From Halosimplex rubrum (lineage in GTDB: Archaea; Halobacteriota; Halobacteria; Halobacteriales; Haloarculaceae): a DNA stretch of 64,000 nucleotides. Both the position numbers and the translations under genes were made by a program. The stretch spans positions 1,054,001 to 1,118,000 of the forward strand of contig NZ_CP058910.1 of assembly GCF_013415885.1 (NCBI RefSeq), written 5' to 3'. The notes below the pieces were generated by a model that ran no database searches, had not been told where the DNA came from, and worked only from the letters and a program-made list of their open reading frames with translations. Positions 19,463 through 26,268 of this stretch are shown piece by piece (position 1 is the stretch's first letter; each line of letters opens with the position of its first letter).

Positions 19463-19733
19463 CGTCGCCTCGCCGCGGCCGAGTCCGCCTCGCTCGGCCG
19501 TGACCGCGCCGGAGTCGCGACGAAGCGTCCGCGGCCGGCCGACGTTCGGTCGCGTTCCGGTCCGGTTGTGTGTCCGATAGTCCGCATCTATCGACACGAA
19601 ACGTCTCGACAGATATTGTTCTTTGGGTGACAGAGTCGCGGATCGGGGGGATCCGGCGCCGCTCGCGTCGGCGGGGCCGACGATCGGCTCCGATACCTGA
19701 CAGACAATATAGTTATCTCGTCTACCAATAAGG

Positions 19734-19742
19734 TTTACATAA
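19734..19742 (+). promoter_or_regulatory. TATA element of the candidate ncRNA
   Basis: TTTACATAA lies in an AT-rich island (19700-19745) inside GC-rich surroundings. Its centre is about 25 nt before 19762, where a long stem-forming RNA begins. No open reading frame with sensible content starts at that distance. The stretch 19463-19733 before it holds the minus-strand promoter area of the DUF4129 operon and otherwise nothing I recognise. Confidence 0.5.
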
Positions 19743-19761
19743 CCCCGGTTCGATGTGGGAA

Positions 19762-20008
19762 GTGGAATGGCGTCAGGAGCGGTCACGGCCCCCGACACGG
19801 TCGCCGGGTAAGCAGCGGAACACGGAGCCGTCAGGCTCGCGAGCCCGCGGTCGACCGTGCCGGGGGAGTCCCGGCCGAGCGGTCGGGGCGCCCGCTCGGC
19901 ACACACCATTCCACCGCGGTCCGAACGCTCACCCGTTCGGACTCGCACCCGAACCACCCACACCCACCCACCCGAACCCACGCCGTCCGGACATCGCGTC
20001 CGGATTTT
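19762..20008 (+). ncRNA. Candidate structured non-coding RNA (about 245 nt)
   Basis: The sequence folds into a closed junction. P1 is GTGGAATGG (19762-19770) with CCATTCCAC (19906-19914), 9 bp. P2 is CCCCCG-A-CACGGTCG (19789-19803) with CGACCGTG-C-CGGGGG (19852-19866), 14 bp with one mismatch. It is capped by a GAGCC-GTCA-GGCTC hairpin (about 19825-19838). P4 is GCCGAGCGG (19874-19882) with CCGCTCGGC (19892-19900), 9 bp. A further perfect 9-bp hairpin is at 19919-19942, then a 40-nt C/A-rich single-stranded stretch, then a terminator-like hairpin. The 5' edge of P1 is where a TATA box at 19734 predicts the transcript start. It does not show RNase P, SRP, 5S or tRNA signatures. It could alternatively be part of a long leader of the DUF368 gene. 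Confidence 0.5.
19986..20008 (+). terminator. Terminator-like hairpin with T tract
   Basis: TCCGGA (19986-19991), loop CATCGCG, TCCGGA (19999-20004), followed by TTTT (20005-20008). It is the only GC hairpin followed by T residues in this gap and would end a transcript begun near 19762. T-rich ends are the usual archaeal termination signal; the hairpin is not strictly needed. Confidence 0.4.
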
Positions 20009-20017
20009 CACGCCCGT

Positions 20018-20044
20018 GATCGCGGCCGACGCTCGGCCGCGGTC
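20018..20044. repeat. Perfect long inverted repeat before the DUF368 gene
   Basis: CGCGGCCGA (20021-20029), loop CGC, TCGGCCGCG (20033-20041) form a 9-bp perfect stem, extendable to 12 bp with a G-T pair (20018-20044). It lies 48 nt before the ATG at 20092. It could be a second transcription end of the upstream RNA or a leader structure; there is no T tract. Confidence 0.4.
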
Positions 20045-20091
20045 GCCCGTTCCACAAGAGACTTCCCACCGATAGGCGAACGTGTAGCCGA

Positions 20092-21114
20092 ATGACGACA
20101 GCCCCGGACAGCGCCCGCGACGAGGTGACGCTCCGCGAGTCGGTCCCGCCGGTCCGCGAGTGGGCGAGAACGTTCGTCGTCGGTCTGTTCATGGGGACCG
20201 CCGACGGCGTCCCCGGCGTCTCCGGCGGCACCGTCGCGCTCATCGCCGGCATCTACGAGCGGCTCATCGCCGCGATCAACGCCGTCTCGCTCGGCCGCTT
20301 TCTCGACGGGCTCCGCGCGCTCACGCCCCTGGACGGCGGCGTCTCGCTCGACCGCGCCGCGGCCGTCCTCGAGGAGGTCGACGGGTGGTTCCTGCTCGCG
20401 CTACTCGGGGGCATCGGGACCGCCGTCGTCCTCGTGGGGCAGGCCGTCGAGTACGCCGACGAGCACGCGCCGGTCCTGATGTTCGGCTTCTTCTTCGGGC
20501 TGATCGGCGCCTCGGCGCTCGTGCTCCTGCGGGCGGTCGCTATCCGAACCCTCCCGGAGGCCGTCGCCGCCGTCGCCGGTGTGGTCGTCGCCTTCGTCGC
20601 CTCGGGCTACTCGGAGTCGCTGCTGGGCGGCGGCGGGCTCCCCGTCGTCTTCGTCGCCGGCGCGGTCGCCGTCAGCGCGATGATCCTCCCCGGCCTCTCG
20701 GGGTCGCTCTTGCTCGTGATCCTCGGGCAGTACACGTACATGTACGCACAGCTCGGGGACTTCCTGGACGGGATCGTGGCCGTCGCGACCCGGGGTGCGG
20801 TCGCCGAACTGACCGGTCCCGGCGTCGTCGTGACGGTGTTCATCTGCGGCGGCCTCGTCGGCCTGTTCACCATCGCTCGGGTCATCCACGCGGCGCTCGA
20901 CGCCAACCGCGAGGTGACCTACGCGTTCCTCGTCGCGCTCGTGCTCGGGGCGCTCCGGGCGCCGATCACGGCCCTGAACGACCCCGTCGAGTACCCGTCG
21001 GTCGTCTGGGACGCTCCCACGACCGAAGCGTTCGCCGCGCTGGCGGTCGTCGGCGCCGCCGTCGTCTTCGTCCTCGACTACTACGCCGTCGACATCGACC
21101 TCGACTCGGTCTGA
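20092..21114 (+). CDS. DUF368 family polyprenyl-phosphate transporter
   Basis: 340 residues, eight to ten membrane segments. GLFMGTADGVPGVSGGTVALIAGIYER (shortened: MGTADGVPGVSGGTVA) near residues 40-55 and MILPGLSGSLLLVILGQY near 200 are the two inverted signature motifs of DUF368. Bacterial members (PopT) were shown to recycle undecaprenyl phosphate across the membrane; a haloarchaeal member should move dolichyl phosphate back to the cytoplasmic face for N-glycan synthesis. A UppP-type phosphatase with a related job is at 50686. ATG 20092 is the start, with the structured region upstream. Confidence 0.82.
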   Translation: MTTAPDSARDEVTLRESVPPVREWARTFVVGLFMGTADGVPGVSGGTVALIAGIYERLIAAINAVSLGRFLDGLRALTPLDGGVSLDRAAAVLEEVDGWFLLALLGGIGTAVVLVGQAVEYADEHAPVLMFGFFFGLIGASALVLLRAVAIRTLPEAVAAVAGVVVAFVASGYSESLLGGGGLPVVFVAGAVAVSAMILPGLSGSLLLVILGQYTYMYAQLGDFLDGIVAVATRGAVAELTGPGVVVTVFICGGLVGLFTIARVIHAALDANREVTYAFLVALVLGALRAPITALNDPVEYPSVVWDAPTTEAFAALAVVGAAVVFVLDYYAVDIDLDSV

Positions 21115-24549: not shown

Positions 24550-26268
24550 CTAGAGCATGTACCGCTGCGCCAGCGGCAGCTCCTCGCTCGGTTCCGCCGA
24601 GACGACCTCGCCGTCGACGTTCACCTCGAAGGTCTCGGGGTCGATCTCGACGTCGTCCGGGCAGTAGTCGTTGTAGTGCATGTCGCTCTTCCCGGGCGTG
24701 CGGGCGCCCGAGACGGGAACGACCGGCGCGTCGAGACCGTACTCCTCGCCGACGCCGGCCTCGGCCGCGGCGGGGCTGACGAACGACAGCGAGAGGCCGT
24801 GTTTGGCCTTGCCCATCGCGCCGGCGCGGGGCCGCTGCTTGATGGGCTCGCAGGTCATCAGCGAGCCGTTGGCCTCGCCCATCTCCGAGTAGACGGGGAA
24901 GCCGCCCTTGAACGTCATCGCGGGCTTGATCCCGAAGAAGGCCGGATCCCACAGCACTACGTCGGCGAGCTTGCCGGGTTCGAGCGTCCCGACGTAGTCG
25001 TCGATGCCCGCCGAGATGGCGGGGTTGATCGTGTACTTCGAGAGGTAGCGCTTGACCCGGAAGTTGTCGGCGTCGTCGTGGGTGTCGGCCGCCTCGTCCT
25101 CCGGGAGGGGGCCGCGCTGGGCCTTCATCTTCGAGGCGGTCTGCCAGGTGCGACAGATCACCTCTGCCATCCGCCCCATCGCCTGGGAGTCGGAGGTCAT
25201 CATCGAGATGGCGCCCTCGTCGTGGAGCACGTCCTCGGCGCCGATGGTCTCGGCGCGCACCCGCGACTCCGCGAAGGCCACGTCCTCCGGCACGTCGGGG
25301 TTGAGGTGGTGGCAGACCATCACCATGTCCAGGTGTTCGTCGAAGGTGTTGACCGTGTAGGGCATCGAGGGGTTCGTCGAGGAGGGGAGCATGTTGGGCT
25401 GGCCGACCATCTCCATGATGTCCGGGGCGTGGCCGCCGCCGGCGCCCTCGATGTGGAACAGGTGCATCGTCCGCCCGTCGACGGCGGCGAAGGTGTTCTC
25501 GACGAACCCGGCCTCGTTGAGCGTGTCCGTGTGCATGCACACCTGCACGTCCTCCTCCTCGGCCACGTCGAGGCAGGTGTCGATGGCCGCGGGCATCGAT
25601 CCCCAGTCCTCGTGGAGCTTCAGCCCGCAGGCGCCCGCTTCGACCTGCTCGCGGAGGGGACCGGGCTTGGAGGCGTTGCCCTTGCCGTAGAAGCCGACGT
25701 TGACGGGCCACTCCTCGGCGGCCTGCAGGAACCGTTTGATGTTCTCGGGGCCGGTCGTCGTCGTGGTCGCGCCGCCGCCGTAGCCGCCACCGAGCATCGT
25801 CGTGATGCCGGAGGCCAGGGCGTGCTCGTGCAACTGCGCGGAGTTGAAGTGGATGTGGATGTCCAGCCCCCCAGCGGTGGCGATCTTCCCCTCGGCGGGG
25901 TAGACGTCGGTCGAGGGGCCGACGACCATGTCGACCCCGTCCATCGTGTCGGGGTTGCCGGCCTTCCCGACGCCGGCGATCTCGCCGTCGCGGATGCCGA
26001 TGTCGGCGGCGACGATCCCGAGGATCGGGTCCATCACCAGGGCGTTCGTCAGCACCCAGTCGAGCGCGCCCTCGGCCTGGGTGGTGCCCGGCGACATCCC
26101 GAGGCCGTCGCGCAGCGTCTTCCCGCCGCCGAACACCGCCTCGTCGCCGGGCGTGCGGAGGTCTTCCTCGACTTCGACGAACAGTTCGGTGTCGCCCAGG
26201 CGCACGCGGTCGCCGGTGGTCGGGCCGTACAGTTCGGCGTAGGCCTCGCGGTCGACCTCGCGGGTCAC
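24550..26268 (-). CDS. ureC: Urease alpha (catalytic) subunit
   Basis: 572 residues, normal length. Nickel-site and catalytic motifs are all present: HIHF (two His ligands), GLKLHEDWG (the Lys to be carbamylated), [25 protein letters not shown], the mobile-flap VCHHLNPDV and TSDSQAMGR with the Asp ligand. It hydrolyses urea to ammonia and carbamate in the cytoplasm. The start is GTG 26268, overlapping the ureB stop as GTGA. The gene order B-C-A-G-D-E-F is the one familiar from Haloarcula-type haloarchaea. Confidence 0.97.

Follow-up and report, generated by a model that had tools for sequence, protein, structure and literature searches.

In the 64,000-nucleotide stretch of Halosimplex rubrum DNA analyzed here (the window), an intergenic region had been preliminarily described as a candidate haloarchaeal structured RNA with its own promoter and a terminator-like end. 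We asked whether this locus is an RNA gene and, if so, of what kind. In the complete Halosimplex genome (G000), the element lies between a minus-strand DUF4129 gene on one side and a plus-strand DUF368 gene on the other. In seven genomes, DNA and protein searches identified an orthologous site that precedes DUF368. Sequence comparison and fold prediction indicate that the element is very probably a real, selected, structured RNA gene. Its features are summarized in Table 1.

Table 1 Features of the predicted RNA element and its flanking region (window coordinates).
Feature	Position	Strand	Evidence or occurrence
Putative dedicated promoter motif AAGRTTTACATWAC, with TATA-like box from 19734	19730–19743	+	Single occurrence per genome, fixed spacing
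Closed structured domain, P1 = GUGGAAUGG/CCAUUCCAC	19762–19914	+	Predicted fold, z, pair probabilities, covariance model
P2, GAGCGG (19777–19782) with CCGCUC (19892–19897)	19777–19897	+	Kept in all
P3 long arm, 19789–19803 with 19852–19866	19789–19866	+	14 bp, one mismatch
P4 hairpin, 9 bp, 19868–19876 with 19881–19889	19868–19889	+	Fold and alignment
9-bp hairpin following P1	19919–19942	+	Five close species only; not in H. aquaticum or H. salinum
Proposed interaction region, a C/A-rich linker bearing CCGAACC(C)ACRCC-type repeats	19947–19985	+	Motif in 7/7
3' hairpin UCCGGAC/GUCCGGA then TTTT, possible 3' end	19986–20008	+	Hairpin 7/7, T-run 5/7
Second conserved GC hairpin	20018–20044	+	Paired in nearly all orthologues
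Separate putative DUF368 promoter region TTCCACAAGAGACTT	20050–20064	+	Recognisable also in element-less relatives L032, L034, L037, and L038
DUF368, polyprenyl-phosphate translocase-like, downstream of the element	20092–21114	+	PF04018, Pfam E = 1e-56

The preliminary description had proposed a 153-nt region closed by a 9-bp stem. The pairing of GTGGAATGG (19762–19770) with CCATTCCAC (19906–19914) encloses exactly 153 nt, and the inner 14-bp stem with one mismatch and the 9-bp stem were both located within it. The further 9-bp hairpin, the C/A-rich linker, and the GC hairpin (19986–20004) followed by TTTT (20005–20008) were each present downstream of the domain in the window. The conserved hairpin at 20018–20044 lies past the end (20008) of the originally described region, and may be part of the RNA or a fallback terminator. 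The pairing of GGRATGG with CYATTCC was found in all seven species, in which G-U replacements preserve it. In the window it is formed by GGAATGG and CCATTCC (to 19912), enclosing 150 nt. P2 retained its position in H. aquaticum with the sequence GAGUCC/GGGCUC. In long-transcript ensembles, the pair probability of P1 was 0.68–1.0 in six of the seven species and 0.14 in H. pelagicum, where the long transcript has another fold in competition with P1. The linker was mostly unpaired in the ensemble (0.5–0.99 in most blocks). Its CCGAACCCACRCC-type motif is present in every species, and the number of repeats differs between species, reaching approximately five tandem copies in H. aquaticum.

Folding stability was compared with that of shuffled sequences and of the surrounding DNA. 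The z-score of the 275-nt region was −5.4, and none of 200 shuffles folded equally well. For the closed domain, z was −4.9 in the window and −3.2 to −5.4 across the seven species, including two strongly diverged ones. The background of 400 windows from the same 64 kb had a mean z of −0.37 (sd 1.14, minimum −4.22). The domain of this genome is thus below all 400 local windows, in agreement with the earlier proposal that its nested pairs go beyond chance GC hairpins. The antisense strand folded about equally well in several species; therefore, thermodynamics alone gives no direction. The direction of the putative RNA follows from the T-run and from the promoter-like motif with its spacing.

A TATA element had been placed 25–28 nt ahead of the domain, and TTTACATAA was indeed found at 19734, 28 nt before GTGGAATGG. 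The motif AAGRTTTACATWAC occurred once per genome (at most one mismatch) in all seven near-complete Halosimplex genomes, and the spacing from TTTACAT to GGRATGG was exactly 30 nt in each of them. The conserved motif and fixed spacing suggest, indirectly, a promoter belonging to the element, although the box is only TATA-like and differs from the consensus TTWT. The proposed terminator-like end held in part: the 3' hairpin is present in all seven species, but the TTTT is missing in H. salinum and H. aquaticum. In Haloferax, 3' ends are marked by T stretches and some hairpins (PMC7237163), and 20008 is therefore a plausible but insecure 3' end. The promoter motif is preceded in the window by an AT-rich stretch (19660–19733; TATAGTTATCTCGTCTACCAATAAGG) that is alike in the orthologous upstream regions of the close species and might contain regulator sites.

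The element was found only in Halosimplex. A promoter-plus-stem pattern and a covariance model (R1) each gave exactly one match per near-complete Halosimplex genome (7/7), in the same position ahead of DUF368, and zero matches in the other 139 genomes of the family, including one incomplete congener. The element is thus conserved outside the species, but it is restricted to the genus and is not general to haloarchaea as first described. In an order-level sample of 392 genomes, no credible match was obtained; two weak covariance-model matches in another family (E ~0.04 per genome) had no correctly placed promoter of this type and were regarded as chance. The promoter-plus-stem pattern also had eight AT-rich matches in viral contigs, likewise taken as chance, and no plasmid homologues were found. 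Short BLAST matches to the GC-rich hairpin or the linker in other genera were not taken as homologues; at one such locus that was inspected (L007), no similarity extended beyond the short match. In four metagenome relatives of the DUF368 gene that are more distant, the promoter region of the gene is kept and the element is absent. The metagenome-assembled relative L034, which is without the RNA element, carries a MITE-like inverted repeat (TAGTAGAATTTGAAAG...CTTTCAAATTCTACTA, L034:1940–2024) upstream of DUF368.

The sequence of the element is under purifying selection. Its identity among the five close species was 91%, compared with 71% at the fourfold sites of DUF368 and 75% in the 200 nt upstream. 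Identity decreased to 65% with H. salinum and 53% with H. aquaticum; these two species still keep the box, the 30-nt spacing, the closing stem, the linker motif CCGAACCCACRCC, and the 3' hairpins. Compensatory base changes were present in the core, where 12 of the 48 pairs in the seven-sequence alignment showed double changes. This number was not reached in any of 500 partner shuffles, and slid structures gave at most four. In P3 of H. carlsbadense and G002, a C-G pair is replaced by U-A, a double change; in the 3' hairpin, U-A changed to G-C and to C-G; and the hairpin at 20018–20044 showed one double and several single compensating changes. Under the strictest null, in which the structure was re-predicted on column-shuffled alignments, the pair count was reached by 12 of 200 alignments (empirical p ~0.05) and the structure conservation index by 8 of 200. 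This index was 0.53 in the core versus 0.22–0.40 in coding windows of similar identity. Among the five close species alone, covariation was hardly above chance, and because the two distant species are aligned with uncertainty in the inner part, covariation may be hidden or mimicked. The compensatory changes anticipated by the preliminary description thus exist, and they are moderate support for a structured RNA. Identity, z, and this moderate covariation together show selection on both sequence and secondary structure, as in haloarchaeal intergenic sRNAs.

Up to E = 5, no Rfam 15 covariance model matched the element in the window, and two diverged orthologues had only chance-level matches. RNase P RNA (RF00373) and SRP RNA (RF01857) were both located at other loci in each Halosimplex genome, which excludes a missing copy of either RNA here and agrees with the earlier statement that the element fits neither. 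These archaeal RNAs resemble the element in being large, compact, and promoter-driven, the Halosimplex case being a predicted one. Elsewhere in the window, positions 25834–25976 (+), near urease-accessory-like genes, gave a marginal Rfam match to 5_ureB_sRNA (40.6 bits against a cut-off of 40); this is probably urease coding sequence resembling the Helicobacter antisense RNA model and not an sRNA.

We considered whether the locus is an RNA gene at all. Hairpins arise by chance in GC-rich DNA, and the stable antisense fold would suit such an origin or a DNA-level element. Both are very unlikely given the strong constraint relative to neutral sites, the extreme z in seven species, the fixed promoter spacing, and the compensatory changes. 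The locus might instead encode a small protein, with a leaderless mRNA that begins at GTG 19762 or ATG 19767. As in leaderless small-protein mRNAs of haloarchaea, a TATA-like box lies ~28–33 nt ahead of a possible start codon; a start-like codon occupies the expected start in most species, and long frames are open. However, the reading frame of the element is unconserved and broken by approximately five frame-changing indels (1, 2, 4, and 5 nt) among the five close species, and the peptide is disfavoured because of them. The starts also vary between species, with ACG at the start position of the long frame in H. salinum. The ATG frame has 14, 44, or 74 residues depending on the species, the product sequences differ, and the long product has no Pfam match and is rich in Arg, in contrast to the acidic proteins of haloarchaea. 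The small-protein explanation is largely refuted, and we regard it as highly improbable. Like haloarchaeal intergenic sRNAs, the element is intergenic and lacks a conserved reading frame. In G002 (locus L004, upstream of DUF368), the long frame crosses the element and continues without interruption, in register, into DUF368, and annotation by ORF length would give DUF368 a spurious N-terminal extension there.

If the element is an RNA, it could be a structured 5' leader of DUF368, with transcription from 19762 running into the gene and the structure sensing a signal such as a lipid carrier or salt. In the seven species the element invariably precedes DUF368 immediately and in the same orientation, while the gene on the opposite side varies, and the open frame of G002 would also fit a leader. 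Constant synteny is equally expected from simple descent, however, and the T-run hairpin and the second hairpin stand between the domain and the gene. A conserved CCACAAGAGACTT-type region with putative promoter activity also lies between the element and DUF368 and is present where the element is absent, which would speak against a leader. Moreover, haloarchaeal mRNAs mostly lack leaders, and structured ones are atypical (PMC4983044). We consider a leader unlikely; because the synteny is constant, a role in cis on DUF368 is conceivable. Somewhat less doubtful is a housekeeping or scaffold RNA whose 5' domain would be bound by a protein, with the repeats serving as a protein or RNA sponge instead of pairing with mRNA. 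The domain is bigger and more compact than in typical sRNAs, the linker motif is in tandem, with the five or so copies of H. aquaticum, and pattern searches with the linker gave no obvious target set, but genus restriction and rapid core divergence are ill-suited to a core housekeeping RNA. A new RNA class, whose compact 5' domain would display CCGAACCCACRCC repeats in an expandable array, serving as a sponge for G/U-rich RNAs or a protein, is a still more speculative idea to which we give little probability; we know of no description of such an expandable repeat-sponge design in archaea.

The predicted RNA is probably regulatory, and regulation in trans is its leading putative function. We moderately favor a non-coding RNA gene of ~245–285 nt with its own promoter, acting as a trans-acting regulatory sRNA through the exposed linker. 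Transcription would start within a few nucleotides of 19762 and end near 20008 or 20045. The rigid 5' domain, closed by the first nucleotides of the RNA, would protect it and may bind a protein. Between this domain and the 3' hairpin or hairpins, the C/A-rich linker, with its CCGAACCCACRCC-type repeats, would lie single-stranded, and it would most likely pair with G/U-rich segments of mRNAs. When the linker and its complement were used in pattern searches, linker-complement sites showed no strand bias and no clear target set emerged; the excess over the backward control means little, since the dinucleotide make-up of that control differs.

The best reading of these results is a new genus-restricted family of intergenic sRNAs, akin in kind to sRNA132 of Haloferax volcanii (PMC6560208). 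The resemblance is one of plan and is not taken as homology. sRNA132 is 138 nt long with a linker of 13 nt, whereas ~245–285 nt are predicted for the Halosimplex RNA, with a repeat-containing linker of ~40 nt. sRNA132 is also experimentally verified, with a phosphate-transport target, whereas the Halosimplex RNA is predicted. Our literature search found no paper on an sRNA of Halosimplex.

To our knowledge, comparative structures are available for few archaeal sRNAs. For the present element, sequences from seven species are aligned, the 5' end is predicted, the single-stranded region is defined, and a covariance model has been built; transcript mapping and deletion in culturable Halosimplex can therefore be planned directly. 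It adds an example of a strongly selected RNA gene that is seemingly confined to one genus and whose core changes fast.
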